Shown piece by piece: positions 13,620-18,379 of a stretch of DNA of 36,087 nt. The DNA is from Oscillatoriales cyanobacterium PMM_0080 (GTDB taxonomy: Bacteria; Cyanobacteriota; Cyanobacteriia; Cyanobacteriales; Microcoleaceae): assembly GCA_949127775.1 (NCBI GenBank), contig CASBQF010000039.1:1-36087 (forward strand), in the 5' to 3' direction. How positions within the stretch are numbered: the stretch's first letter is position 1; every line of letters starts with the position of its first letter. Both the position numbers and the translations under genes were made by a program. A model generated the notes under the pieces. That model had not been told where the DNA came from and did not search any database. It saw only the letters and a list, made by a program, of their open reading frames with translations.

Positions 13620-13765
13620 ATGAGATAGAGGACACGGCAGTGCCGTGTCCCTACAATTAATAACGGTAGGGAAACGGCATCTTGAGATAAGCGAGGACAC
13701 GGCAGTGCCGTATCCCTACAATTAATAACGGTAGGGAAACGGCACTGCCGTGTCCTCTATCTCAT
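13620..13765. repeat. Double family C palindrome with 27 bp perfect arms and 65 bp internal duplication
   Basis: The left arm 13620-13646 and right arm 13739-13765 are perfectly complementary over 27 bases (ATGAGATAGAGGACACGGCA...). Between them a 65 bp unit is repeated directly (starts at 13628 and 13693), so two family C units sit inside one palindrome. A family B palindrome (ATTCCGGCGCAGCCGGAATT, 13764-13783) follows directly. Confidence 0.85.
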
Positions 13766-13785
13766 TCCGGCGCAGCCGGAATTAA

Positions 13786-13829
13786 TCACAAATCACAAAT
13801 CACAAATCACAAATAACCAATCACAAATC
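13786..13829. repeat. Short tandem heptamer-type repeat (AATCACA)n
   Basis: AATCACA is repeated head to tail about five times, with an ATAACCA variant. A partly complementary run of TTATTTGTTACTGG units lies at 13556-13605 on the other side of the double palindrome, so the heptamers form an outer layer around it. This is the class known as short tandemly repeated repetitive sequences in filamentous cyanobacteria. Units abut without unique spacers, so it is not a CRISPR. Confidence 0.75.
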
Positions 13830-13833
13830 ACCC

Positions 13834-14247
13834 TTAAAAAACATATTTTTCAGCGACGCGCCAGTAGCGAGAGAAACGCTTCAAATCAATGTAACCATCG
13901 TAGCGGACAAAGGCTTCTGGTGGCAAAACTTCTACTGGGTGCGATCGCCTAATTTTCCGGCAAATATCCTGAAACCCAGGACTGGGACTTTCCGCAGTCA
14001 CTACTTGATTCGCACCGGATTCTTGAGCAAAAGCGATAACTTCCGTAGCCACATCGCCGCGCCGAATAACTACCGGCAACTCCAGCAAACATTCGTAAAT
14101 AAACACCATTCGTTTGAGACTCAACTGCCATTCATCTATCAGTTTGTCATCCCAAACCCAGATTGCGGGTGCTTCTGGATGTGCTTGAAAAGCCGGCCCT
14201 TCAGGACTCAAACAGTCGCCGTGTAGCCAAATAATCGAATTGTTCAT
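13834..14247 (-). CDS. Photolyase-like N-terminal (Rossmann-like antenna) domain as a separate protein
   Basis: The 137-residue protein corresponds to the alpha/beta N-terminal domain of photolyases and cryptochromes, which normally holds an antenna cofactor. It starts NNSIIWLHGDCLSPEGPA, then AIWVWDDKLIDEWQLS, ELPVVIRRGDVATEVIAFAQ (the GD step that in whole photolyases precedes the helix of this domain), QVVTAESPSPGFQDICRKI and ends FSRYWRVAEKYVF. The FAD domain is absent here but is encoded in the upstream gene (14368-15228) on the same strand, 120 bp away. The two proteins together would make one split photolyase/cryptochrome, in inverted gene order compared with the fused protein. A 24 bp palindrome (family A) lies between them. 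Family assignment by pattern; partnership inferred. Confidence 0.75.
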   Translation of the reverse strand: MNNSIIWLHGDCLSPEGPAFQAHPEAPAIWVWDDKLIDEWQLSLKRMVFIYECLLELPVVIRRGDVATEVIAFAQESGANQVVTAESPSPGFQDICRKIRRSHPVEVLPPEAFVRYDGYIDLKRFSRYWRVAEKYVF

Positions 14248-14267
14248 TGCTTAGTAATTAGTAATTT

Positions 14268-14329
14268 GGTTTGTAGTGAGGACTTCAGTCCGCATCAAAT
14301 TCAGAGGACTGAAGTCCTCACTACAAACC
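14268..14329. repeat. Palindromic repeat, family A (GAGGACTTCAGTCC)
   Basis: Perfect 24 bp arms (14268-14291 and 14306-14329, GGTTTGTAGTGAGGACTTCAGTCC) surround a 14 bp loop. Related copies lie at 31655-31715 and 30614-30814. It sits in the gap between the two halves of the split photolyase and could form a strong hairpin in a joint transcript. Confidence 0.88.
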
Positions 14330-14367
14330 TTTATCAAACATCATGTAGAATATGTTGGCGAACTTGC

Positions 14368-15228
14368 TTAATTTTTCCTGCCCTTTTTAGGACGCTCCCA
14401 GCTTTTAGAACCGCCCGTGCGATCGACTGATTCGCCCTTCGGAAATAACTTGCCTTCCAAATATTCGTAAGTTCCCTCAAAATCGCATTGTCCGTACAGA
14501 GGACAATCACGACAATAAACCTTTTTAGTAAAGCGCTCCACATTTTCCCGATTAAAAAAATAAGGTTTGTGACTAAAAGTGCTCGCTACCCACTGCCAAG
14601 AAAGATTATTACTCGCCGGATCTCCATCTAGCAAATGTTCCAAAAACCAGCGAGCTCCAGCTTGCCACTTCACCTTGCGCCAGTGTACGAGATAAGCCGC
14701 AGTCCACATCCGCTGATGATTGTGCAAATAACCAGTTTCTCGCAACTCGCGACTGATACTGTCGATGCAAACCAAACCAGTCGTGCCCTCAATGACATCT
14801 TGGGGCATAGTTTCGCTGTAATCTGAAGCAGTGTAACCAGTTTTGTACTCTTCCCGGTCTTGCCAAATCCCTTTGCCCAATTCGGCGTAGAGTCGCTGCC
14901 AATAATCGCGCCAACCCAACTCGTTGACGAGTTTCGTGGCATCTTCTTGATGCTGCACTTTTTCTAGTACGGCATCTCGGACTTCGGCAAGGCTCAAAAC
15001 GCCGTAGCGCAAATAGGGGGACAAGCGCGTTACTGCGCCGTTGAGAAAGTTGCGGCTTGAGGCGTATTTGCCGGGATTGACTTGTTTGAGCACTTTCTCG
15101 GCTGCTTTGCGCCCGCCCATCGTGGGGGGTACGTTGCTGTCTCGGGCGGCGGCTTCAGGGAACTGTTGGCTCACGTAGGCGATTAATTCGTCGCGGCTGT
15201 CAAATTCCCGCTTCATGTCCTGAGTCAT
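14368..15228 (-). CDS. FAD-binding domain of a split photolyase/cryptochrome, candidate [4Fe-4S] type
   Basis: The 286-residue protein is the helical FAD-binding half of the photolyase/cryptochrome family without its antenna domain. Family motifs are clear: RLSPYLRYGVLSLAEVRDAV (69-88), NELGWRDYW (102-110), RETGYLHNHQRMWTAAYLVH (163-182), WFLEHLLDGDPASNNLSWQW (194-213) and KPYFFNRENVERF. Four cysteines, C154 (GLVCIDSI, just before the GYLHNHQRM helix), C239, C242 and C248 (VYCRDCPLYGQCDF), lie where the FeS-containing bacterial photolyases (PhrB, CryB) place their cluster ligands, though the last spacing is shorter (five residues between C242 and C248). The FAD site looks complete. The antenna domain is a separate protein downstream. 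The gene is divergent from ribD, which makes the flavin precursor. It may repair UV photoproducts or act as a blue-light receptor; the sequence does not settle which. Confidence 0.93.
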   Translation of the reverse strand: MTQDMKREFDSRDELIAYVSQQFPEAAARDSNVPPTMGGRKAAEKVLKQVNPGKYASSRNFLNGAVTRLSPYLRYGVLSLAEVRDAVLEKVQHQEDATKLVNELGWRDYWQRLYAELGKGIWQDREEYKTGYTASDYSETMPQDVIEGTTGLVCIDSISRELRETGYLHNHQRMWTAAYLVHWRKVKWQAGARWFLEHLLDGDPASNNLSWQWVASTFSHKPYFFNRENVERFTKKVYCRDCPLYGQCDFEGTYEYLEGKLFPKGESVDRTGGSKSWERPKKGRKN

Positions 15229-15423: not shown

Positions 15424-16599
15424 ATGGAAACTTTTCCGGCGGATGCTAAACCTTTCGCCAACTTAGCCAATCGACAGCAGCCAGCTACAAAACAACTCGA
15501 CAGCAGCGAAATTCAAGAGTTCGATCGAGCCATGATGCGCCGCTGCATAGAATTAGCCCGCCGTGCTCTCGGCAAAACCGCACCCAATCCCCTCGTCGGT
15601 TGTGTAATTGTCCGAGACGGCAAAATTGTCGGCGAAGGGTTCCATCCCGGTGCTGGCCAACCTCACGCCGAAGTTTTTGCGCTCCGGGAAGCGGGGGAAC
15701 TAGCCGAAGGAGCGACGGCATACGTCAGCCTAGAGCCATGCAACCACTACGGGCGGACTCCTCCCTGTTCCGAAGCTTTAATTAAAGCCAAAGTGGCAAA
15801 AGTAGTCGCTGGCATGGTCGATCCGAATCCATTGGTAGCTGGCACTGGGCTGGCTCGGTTGCGGGAGGCTGGCATTGAAGTGGTGGCGGGAGTAGAAGGG
15901 GAAGCTTGCCAAAAACTGAATGAGGCTTTTGTGCACCGGATTTTGCATCGTCGGCCTTTTGGAATTTTGAAATATGCGATGACTTTGGACGGTAAAATTG
16001 CTACCAGTAGCGGCCACAGCGCTTGGGTGACAGGGCAGGAGGCTCGGAGTGAGGTGCACCGGGTGCGTGTCGGCTGCGATGCTGTGATTGTTGGCGGAAA
16101 TACGGTGCGTCTAGACAATCCCTTACTGACAAGTCACAAACCTGACGGGAATAATCCCCTGCGGGTGGTGATGAGTCGCACTCTGGATTTGCCGAAGTCT
16201 GCTTGGTTGTGGGAAACCTCTGTGGCGGCTACTTTGGTACTAACTGAGCCTGGGGTTAACCCAGAATTTCAGGAATTTTTGATCGCCAAAGGGGTGGAAG
16301 TTGTGGAGTTGTCGTCGTTGACACCGACTAATGCAATGGCTTATTTGTACGATCGATCTTTTCTTTCTGTACTGTGGGAGTGTGGCGGAACTTTGGCAGC
16401 CAAAGCAATTGCTGAGGGTGCAGTCCAAAAAATTATGGCTTTTATTGCTCCTAAAATTGTCGGCGGCCAAAATGCTCCAACTCCTGTCGGAGATTTGGGG
16501 TTTTTGGCAATGACTGATGCTTTGACTTTAGAGCGAGTTTCTTGGCGCACTGTGGGTGCAGATTGTGTGGTGGAAGGCTATCTGAAAATTAAAGATTGA
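15424..16599 (+). CDS. ribD: Bifunctional riboflavin biosynthesis deaminase/reductase
   Basis: RibD deaminates 2,5-diamino-6-ribosylamino-4(3H)-pyrimidinone 5'-phosphate and then reduces the ribose with NADPH, the second and third steps from GTP to riboflavin. The 391-residue protein has the N-terminal zinc deaminase (about 38-175) with H81-A-E83 and C106/C115 in EPCNHYGRTPPC. The reductase (about 178-388) has LKYAMTLDGKIATSSGHSAW, VGCDAVIVGGNTVRLDNPLL and LWECGGTLA. The first 37 residues precede the conserved MMRRCIELA; M37 or M38 are alternative starts, but the ATG at 15424 gives an uninterrupted cyanobacterial-style extension. It is divergent from the photolyase FAD gene over 195 bp; no FMN riboswitch is recognisable in that gap. 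Confidence 0.96.
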   Translation: METFPADAKPFANLANRQQPATKQLDSSEIQEFDRAMMRRCIELARRALGKTAPNPLVGCVIVRDGKIVGEGFHPGAGQPHAEVFALREAGELAEGATAYVSLEPCNHYGRTPPCSEALIKAKVAKVVAGMVDPNPLVAGTGLARLREAGIEVVAGVEGEACQKLNEAFVHRILHRRPFGILKYAMTLDGKIATSSGHSAWVTGQEARSEVHRVRVGCDAVIVGGNTVRLDNPLLTSHKPDGNNPLRVVMSRTLDLPKSAWLWETSVAATLVLTEPGVNPEFQEFLIAKGVEVVELSSLTPTNAMAYLYDRSFLSVLWECGGTLAAKAIAEGAVQKIMAFIAPKIVGGQNAPTPVGDLGFLAMTDALTLERVSWRTVGADCVVEGYLKIKD

Positions 16600-17464: not shown

Positions 17465-18379
17465 TTAAATTTGAGGCGGTGTTACTGATGGAGCGGATAG
17501 CAATCTCAAGTCATAATCTGTATCACCTTGAATTTGAGAAACGCGGACAAAATAAGTTCCCGCAGGCAAAGCCCCATTGCTGACAATTTTTTCGGAAGCC
17601 GTTCCTAAATTGTTAGATGAAGCAATAATATCGTCTAATCCAACTACGCCGTTGCCGTTGAGATCCTGGATTAATTCTACATCAACATCTGCACTCAAAC
17701 CGTCAACAGTGACACTAAAAATGCTGGGAGTATTGAGGATGAAACTGTAAATGTCTGTTGTTTCAGCAGCCCCTACAAAATCATTAGCATTTAGACTATC
17801 TGTGAGAATTCCCAGGCTTTGTGCTGCGTTCAAATCATCGCCGGGAGCGGGGAGAGTGCTCAATAGTCCTTCTTTTTGACCGAATTGAATGTAGTGATCG
17901 ATCGCACTTTTAACTGCACCACCGCCGACTGCGCCTCCTACCAACGGATATCTTTCTAGATAAAAACTGGGATCGAAGAAAATGCTGGGTTTGCGATTTT
18001 CTAATTGACCGACTTTGAAGTAGTGTTCAAATGCGGTAAATTCATTTGTTTGGACTGCCGTCTTAACGTCTGGGTTGCTGGTTAGATAAAAATTAACATC
18101 GAATAAAGGGTTGGGGCTGCGAACTTCAAATTGACCGAATTTGATAAAGTGATCGGCGGCTGAAAAGCCATTGAGTTTCGCTGATACCGCTACATCTGTA
18201 TTCGTGTCTAAATAGTAGCCGGCATCGAACAGCGCATTCGGATCGCGGTTTTCAAATTTGCCAATTTTTCGGTAGTGATCGAAGGGACTCGATACAGTCC
18301 CTCTGGCAACTTGTACGGCGACATCTGGGTTGTTTTCGAGATAAAATTTGCTGTCGAACAGTGTTCTGAGGGTTAGCAT
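17465..18379 (-). CDS. Repeat protein with PPC-like C-terminal domain
   Basis: The 304-residue protein has four tandem repeats of about 42 residues at 7-49, 50-91, 92-133 and 134-175. Each follows FD..FYL..NPDV, then a short linker and HY...G..E.R.PN. This repeat occurs in many extracellular or calcium-associated cyanobacterial proteins. Residues about 185-298 form a bacterial pre-peptidase C-terminal (PPC) beta-sandwich, including TDIYSFILNTPSIFSVTVDG and LPAGTYFVRVSQIQGDTDYD, with DLNGNGVVGLDD (239-250) resembling a dockerin/EF-hand calcium loop. There is no N-terminal signal peptide, so export, if any, would use another route such as type I secretion. The gene is divergent from the flavin oxidase. 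No enzymatic motif is present; a surface-associated role is inferred. Confidence 0.85.
   Translation of the reverse strand: MLTLRTLFDSKFYLENNPDVAVQVARGTVSSPFDHYRKIGKFENRDPNALFDAGYYLDTNTDVAVSAKLNGFSAADHFIKFGQFEVRSPNPLFDVNFYLTSNPDVKTAVQTNEFTAFEHYFKVGQLENRKPSIFFDPSFYLERYPLVGGAVGGGAVKSAIDHYIQFGQKEGLLSTLPAPGDDLNAAQSLGILTDSLNANDFVGAAETTDIYSFILNTPSIFSVTVDGLSADVDVELIQDLNGNGVVGLDDIIASSNNLGTASEKIVSNGALPAGTYFVRVSQIQGDTDYDLRLLSAPSVTPPQI

Follow-up and report, generated by a model that had tools for sequence, protein, structure and literature searches.

Does a photolyase whose flavin adenine dinucleotide (FAD) domain and antenna domain are encoded by separate genes work as one enzyme, and does it carry an iron-sulfur (FeS) cluster? 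The question is raised by a window of 36,087 nucleotides from the filamentous Oscillatoriales cyanobacterium PMM_0080 (assembly GCA_949127775.1, contig CASBQF010000039.1, positions 1 to 36,087 of the forward strand), the whole stretch of DNA analysed here. A first-pass annotation, made from the letters of the window, had recognized an FAD-binding half and an antenna half as separate proteins on one strand, and had proposed that four cysteines of the FAD half are cluster ligands. Both open reading frames (ORFs) are located as it described, and the gene order is inverted with respect to ordinary photolyases because the FAD half comes first on the minus strand (Table 1). We consider it probable that the two genes together specify a single two-subunit DNA photolyase, of the SPL or Phr4-Phr5 type, comprising an FeS-bearing FAD subunit and an antenna supplied in trans, with the cyclobutane pyrimidine dimer (CPD) as substrate. 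Three observations carry this reading: both halves are homologous to photolyase domains, in the genomes tested every FAD half is accompanied by an antenna half, and the cysteines are conserved and align with those of the FeS-BCPs.

Pfam places the FAD half in FAD_binding_7 (E 1.4e-25), and its best matches among Protein Data Bank (PDB) sequences are class I and class III photolyases. AlphaFold2 predicted its fold with a mean pLDDT of 87.8 and a pTM of 0.84. In a Foldseek search, 282 columns of the model aligned with the FeS-BCP PhrB (4dja; E 4.2e-7, query-length TM 0.65, root-mean-square deviation 6.0), though class I and III enzymes outranked PhrB. For the antenna half, PF00875 (DNA_photolyase) matched 35 of 40 aligned sequences at E <= 0.1 (best 2.6e-5), including that of the window (E 0.0026, under the curated cut-off); PF04244 matched just five of the 40 (best E 0.016). 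Residues 1-103 of the antenna profile aligned with the N-terminal domain of class I and DASH photolyases (hhalign 94%, E 1.4e-7), a match that was gone in the reversed-target control (0.1%). The FAD profile (A1) was built from 37 of 64 FAD rows and the antenna profile (A2) from 40 antenna rows out of 55, a set that did not include 10 unlinked antenna genes. The two-domain part (450 aa) of a naturally fused relative, L159, was predicted to fold as one unit (pLDDT 91.9, pTM 0.91), and this confident prediction is consistent with a defined interface between the FAD and antenna domains. The L159 model also aligned with photolyases in Foldseek, whose sequential alignment is blind to the placement of the antenna relative to ordinary enzymes.

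We examined the pairing of the halves in 291 genomes of the cyanobacterial class, that of the window included. A strong FAD-half match (E <= 7.4e-58) was present in 64 genomes and an antenna-half match in 65; 64 genomes contained both halves, none contained the FAD half alone and one (G074) contained the antenna half alone, a co-occurrence with a Fisher p of 3e-64 if genomes are taken as independent and their relatedness is ignored. The next FAD-half match after those 64 (E 1.5e-33) was a Phr7-kind protein lacking the CxxC and the last cysteine. In G074 (L055 / L099), no FAD half was found in the 6 kb surrounding the antenna gene either, reflecting either a real loss or an assembly gap. The antenna half was downstream on the same strand in 48 of the 64 pairs, with -29 to 1828 nt between matches, and one of these pairs (G255) formed a single fused ORF. 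The remaining 16 pairs were unlinked, six of them on different contigs and 10 on one contig, with contig coordinates 88 kb to 4.9 Mb apart and in five cases on opposite strands. These genes are unlinked and yet retained together, a pattern that argues for joint action of the two polypeptides in trans.

The same pairing was evident in named genomes, for which we inspected the best 80 of at least 574 confirmed relatives. The halves were adjacent in 55 of these loci (always on the same strand, with FAD first) and fused in seven, whereas in 18 the fetched flank contained none; for all 18, an antenna half was found elsewhere in the same genome, so that 80 of the 80 have a partner. Downstream flanks among these 18 ended after about 0.2 kb in L127 and L136 and about 1.5 kb in L140 and L150, the other 14 reaching about 4 kb, and in those four loci adjacency across a contig break is possible. 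By record title, the 80 loci comprise 55 cyanobacterial, 11 Chloroflexi, 11 Acidobacteria and three others (Rhodospirillales, Acidimicrobiia and Tatlockia), many being metagenome bins whose titles may be wrong. The pair in the bin titled Tatlockia sp. (L165) is much like the cyanobacterial and Chloroflexi ones, and its title is perhaps a binning error. Both halves also occur on four Deinococcus plasmids, fused in three and as overlapping genes in one. Fused forms always have FAD first (the seven among the best 80, G255 and the three Deinococcus plasmid copies), and separate genes are the most frequent arrangement in the cyanobacterial, Chloroflexi and Acidobacteria loci. A Persicobacter plasmid (L119:2758-4059) encodes a 433-aa protein whose FAD half lacks the set of cysteines and whose C-terminal part went unrecognized by the antenna profile; by eye, the protein is followed by another photolyase-like ORF overlapping its end by a few bases.

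The FAD half of the window contains exactly four cysteines, C154, C239, C242 and C248, as first annotated. They fall on the four cysteines of nine cyanobacterial FeS-BCPs (hhalign 97.9%, E 4e-13), which supports the proposal of a split photolyase with an FeS ligand site. The FeS-BCP relative encoded by the same genome (L113; best PDB match 8ijy, E 8.8e-198) can be aligned to both PhrB (4dja) and SePhrB (8ijy) such that the cysteine segments coincide. Conservation was scored on 148 FAD-half rows from two overlapping samples (143 distinct sequences after core trimming; the Persicobacter protein and a NewPHL, L120, were left out). All four cysteines are present in 131 of the 143 distinct sequences, none in 11, and two in the interrupted gene of G035; on the 148 rows, the corresponding counts are 136, 11 and one. 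No other alignment column holds cysteine in more than 15% of the 148 rows. Among the 64 cyanobacterial genomes with the pair, 55 have the four cysteines, eight have none, all of family f34, and G035 has the interrupted gene. Those eight and three Anaerolineae loci make up the 11 sequences without cysteines. The three (L185, L188 and L195) keep an adjacent split pair and lack all four cysteines, forming a second cysteine-less group beside f34. The G035 gene (L096) is broken such that residues 5-228 and 221-275 match about 160 nt apart, and its antenna ORF is open. Within the split family, the cysteines are thus present all or none, as a shared ligand set predicts; in a tree of 39 rows, the best topology needs two changes of this trait, and 8% of 200 bootstrap trees need one.

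When the FAD half was aligned to E. coli photolyase (1dnp), N170 fell on N341 and M174 on M345, which we take to be lesion contacts of CPD enzymes. Residue 170 is Asn in all 143 distinct sequences (148/148 rows) and His in 6/6 FeS-BCPs. Residue 174 is Met in 120 and Leu in 23 of the distinct sequences (Met in 125/148 rows, and in the window), and Leu in the six FeS-BCPs. Instead of the His-His-X-X-Arg lesion motif of the FeS-BCPs, 148/148 rows contain H169-N170-H171-x-R173. Invariant in the same 148 rows are also R107, D201, D203 and the WQW segment, as well as W188, W211 and W213. Judging from these residues, the lesion site appears to be of the CPD type, contrary to a published (6-4) prediction.

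We propose a working model in which the FAD subunit would bind reduced FAD and the ultraviolet (UV) lesion, and its C154, C239, C242 and C248 would ligate a cluster, most likely [4Fe-4S]. The small subunit would be the antenna domain as a separate polypeptide, docking on the FAD subunit in trans and passing light energy, through a presumed antenna pigment, to the reduced FAD, which would then split the lesion by light-driven electron transfer. The active-site residues point to a cyclobutane pyrimidine dimer as the most likely substrate. As a general antenna pigment, 8-hydroxy-5-deazaflavin (8-HDF) is unlikely: a cofH match (E <= 1e-30) was found in 51 of the 64 genomes with the pair (counted by hand, that of the window included) and was absent in 13, indicating that 8-HDF is not the universal pigment if cofH is needed for it.

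Several points weigh against this reading of the pair as a two-subunit, FeS-bearing CPD photolyase. By sequence, class I photolyases are closer to the FAD half than the FeS-BCPs are, and none of the 48 PDB sequences matched by the A5 profile at E <= 0.001 is an FeS-BCP. The antenna half of the window, taken alone, stays below the Pfam cut-off with no curated family match, and it has no PDB sequence match at E <= 1. Eleven of 143 distinct FAD halves lack the cysteines and keep the gene pair, indicating that some lineages can do without the cluster. A cysteine at the place of C154 occurs without the other three in two of six NewPHL/Phr7 rows (L228 and L097), so that this residue alone proves little. 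The cysteine of L228 (NewPHL) and L097 (Phr7) may be a remnant or due to chance; the Phr7 of G041 has a cysteine at this place. Experimental data come from the 2022 study of Phr4 and Phr5 (PMC9426592), in which the phr4 mutant of RS9916 survived UV-C 20 to 30 times less well and showed no UV-B effect. E. coli carrying the phr4-phr5 region survived UV-C better, by a margin not significantly larger in the light than in darkness, and its survival of UV-B was unchanged. This UV-C protection without significant light dependence speaks most strongly against a simple photolyase, and the authors predict a (6-4) enzyme. Their prediction, which draws on the cysteines and on the harm caused by phr4 loss after UV-C but not UV-B, would make the pair a (6-4) photolyase like the FeS-BCPs, whose four cysteine positions are identical. 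We nevertheless regard it as improbable, because Asn occupies position 170 in every row where the FeS-BCPs have His, the genome of the window also possesses the FeS-BCP relative L113, and SPL proteins are reported as CPD enzymes (PMC9649867). Moreover, the split pair is distributed independently of PF04244 (found in 49 of 64 versus 177 of 227 genomes, p 0.87), so that we discarded the idea that pair and FeS-BCP complement each other. The E. coli result would also suit a protein without light-driven repair, such as one that binds damage in the dark or a sensor of the cryptochrome kind; however, the invariance of R107, N170, D201, D203 and the WQW segment speaks against it, and a purely dark function would not explain why the antenna partner is kept wherever the FAD half is found, making this explanation quite improbable.

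The metal is a further point of doubt, since the four cysteines could hold zinc. A C-x2-C-x5-C arrangement with a distant cysteine seems compatible with zinc, or with a role in folding and no cluster at all, and the site is missing in two groups that retain the pair. We hold this to be unlikely given the position-by-position match to the FeS-BCP cysteines, which bind [4Fe-4S] in a solved structure (PMC9852545), and the description of SPL as an FeS protein in a paper citing the original work (PMC9649867). Two alternatives deny that there are two functional subunits. Programmed frameshifting between the adjacent ORFs, as proposed for marine Synechococcus, would yield a single protein, in agreement with the tight spacing in many genomes and with the existence of natural fusions. 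In the window, however, 120 nt with a palindromic repeat separate the stop codon of the FAD half from the start of the antenna half, and frameshifting cannot join the halves of the 16 unlinked pairs among 64; we therefore rejected this highly improbable mechanism. The dispersed repeat between the halves could also be the insertion that broke a fused gene now in decay, an idea that we dismissed as having hardly any probability: both ORFs are intact, each with its own start, and the split state is the commonest in the three main groups. The halves are, in addition, well conserved, with identities of 86-88% (FAD) and 93% (antenna) within the genus and of 62-71% and 64-74%, respectively, to other genera of the order.

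Table 1. Features of the split photolyase locus, in window coordinates.
Feature	Position	Strand	Evidence
FAD/catalytic half, 286 aa; Phr4 and SPL orthologue	14368..15228	-	ORF, Pfam, AlphaFold2, Foldseek
Antenna (alpha/beta) half, 137 aa; Phr5 orthologue, downstream of FAD half	13834..14247	-	ORF, PF00875, hhalign
C154 codon, putative FeS ligand 1	14767..14769	-	aligned with first FeS-BCP cysteine; C in 137/148 rows
C239 codon, putative FeS ligand 2	14512..14514	-	aligned with FeS-BCP cysteine; C in 136/148 rows
C242 codon, putative FeS ligand 3	14503..14505	-	aligned with FeS-BCP cysteine; C in 136/148 rows
C248 codon, putative FeS ligand 4	14485..14487	-	aligned with FeS-BCP cysteine; C in 137/148 rows
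Dispersed palindromic repeat, 24-bp arms (14268-14291 and 14306-14329); intergenic, outside the enzyme	14268..14329	.	fold z -8.1

The 19-bp core of the repeat arms has 35 exact copies in the genome of the window, two of them in the tabulated repeat, and none in the reversed control. Downstream of the antenna gene (13620-13790), more palindromic repeat-like copies around gacacggcagtgccgtgtcc were noticed by eye. On the other side, ribD (15424-16599, plus strand) is divergent from the FAD half. The first-pass annotation was right about this position, but the link to flavin supply that it drew was dropped: in the loci examined, with flanks of about 1.5-4 kb that sometimes ended at contig ends, ribD adjoins the pair only in the genus of the window, in Microcoleus- and Tychonema-titled records, and in two Oscillatoriales-titled bins, and a neighbourhood local to one group gives no functional hint. 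The genome of the window is Microcoleus-like: its RibD shares 98% identity with the RibD of L178, a contig titled Microcoleus sp. CAN_BIN18. A 304-aa ORF at 17465-18379 contains several FDxxxYLxxNPDVA-like repeats. Elsewhere, the same genome encodes a class I photolyase (L001).

The pair in the window is an orthologue of the published Phr4/Phr5 pair and thus adds a member to a kind already known, if little studied. The more interesting part lies in the family-level findings, which are computational: pairing in trans across phyla, a CPD-type site, and cysteines kept or lost as a set. Tentatively, and with less assurance than for the pair itself, we suggest that the SPL class may be an obligate two-subunit CPD photolyase of Cyanobacteria, Chloroflexi, Acidobacteria and Deinococcus, in which the antenna in trans is retained even when its gene is megabases away and the FeS cluster would have been lost whole at least twice. 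If so, the published idea of SPLs as FAD-only ancestors of all photolyases would rest on an overlooked partner gene, and the antenna-first and antenna-last layouts may each have arisen by its own fusion of an enzyme first encoded by two genes. A photolyase with its light-collecting domain as a separate subunit would become experimentally accessible, and relatives with four cysteines beside relatives with none would constitute a built-in test of the role of the cluster. The pattern calls into question the (6-4) assignment of Phr4/Phr5 as well as the view of SPLs as antenna-less ancestors.

The architecture, which the first-pass annotation had thought distinct, is already in the literature. Two adjacent Synechococcus genes were suggested in 2012 to form a heterodimeric photolyase (PMC3441193), and PMC9426592 names phr4, phr5 and a fused phr6 in marine Synechococcus and Cyanobium, lists the four cysteines (C169, C254, C257 and C263 in RS9916 Phr4) and attributes the same gene set to Nostoc punctiforme. 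The window and Phr4/Phr5 have in common separate genes, an upstream FAD half and four cysteines with equal spacing, and the inverted order is that of the fused Phr6. They differ in the gap, which spans 120 nt with a repeat in the window and 7 bp in marine Synechococcus. Unlinked pairs and CPD-type lesion residues come from the present analysis and go beyond the accessible part of the Phr4/Phr5 account. In a literature search mostly outside subscription papers, we found no paper joining SPL with Phr4/Phr5 or reporting unlinked pairs, and none on Deinococcus, Chloroflexi or Acidobacteria members. The accessible text of PMC9426592 does not mention SPL, Deinococcus or Chloroflexi, nor does that of PMC9178010 mention Phr4.

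SPL proteins (after Xu et al. 2021) are described as CPD enzymes with an FeS cluster and without an alpha/beta domain, and as possible ancestors of the photolyase family (PMC9649867). S. elongatus has three photolyase-family genes, one of them an SPL, SePhrC (PMC9178010). In our sample, G031 is S. elongatus-like, its class I photolyase differing from 1owl at 3 of 484 positions, and its one strong FAD-half match is the orthologue of the window gene, with the antenna gene 3 nt downstream. We infer that this orthologue and SePhrC are the same gene; the S. elongatus SPL thus very probably has an antenna partner. The FAD half of the window resembles SPLs in having an FAD domain with a class I/III-like sequence and no N-terminal alpha/beta domain. 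It departs from the SPL description as an enzyme devoid of an antenna domain, as the partner exists in the window, in 64/64 cyanobacterial genomes and in all of the best 80 named loci.

The FeS-BCPs (PhrB, CryB, SePhrB and the Vc (6-4) photolyase) resemble the FAD half of the window in the four cysteine positions and in the fold of the FAD domain. Unlike the pair, they are single polypeptides with the antenna first, a PF04244 N-terminal domain, absent from the FAD half of the window, and a His-His lesion motif, and similarity elsewhere is low. A family-level tree of 61 chosen rows left the order of SPL, class I/DASH and FeS-BCP without deep resolution, with long branches meeting. NewPHL and Phr7, single-stranded DNA CPD photolyases with an FAD domain followed by a Z-domain, place the FAD domain first, as in the window. 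They gave the highest scores of the named groups with a split-family profile (164.8-202.6 bits, compared with 32.6-121.4 for class I, DASH and FeS-BCP), a profile whose 41 rows include one NewPHL (L120) and the Persicobacter protein. However, the CxxC and the last cysteine are present in 0/6 NewPHL/Phr7 rows, whereas the FAD half of the window has all four cysteines and ends soon after them, instead of continuing in one chain into a C-terminal Z-domain. Between the Z-domain and the antenna half, hhalign gave E 0.0032 and a score of 25, where 20 shuffles reached no more than 15.7, a result only suggestive of homology. Finally, class I CPD photolyases have the WQW segment and the CPD-site Asn and Met in common with the window (in the family, Leu replaces Met in 23 of 148 rows), but differ from it in their fused N-terminal antenna.
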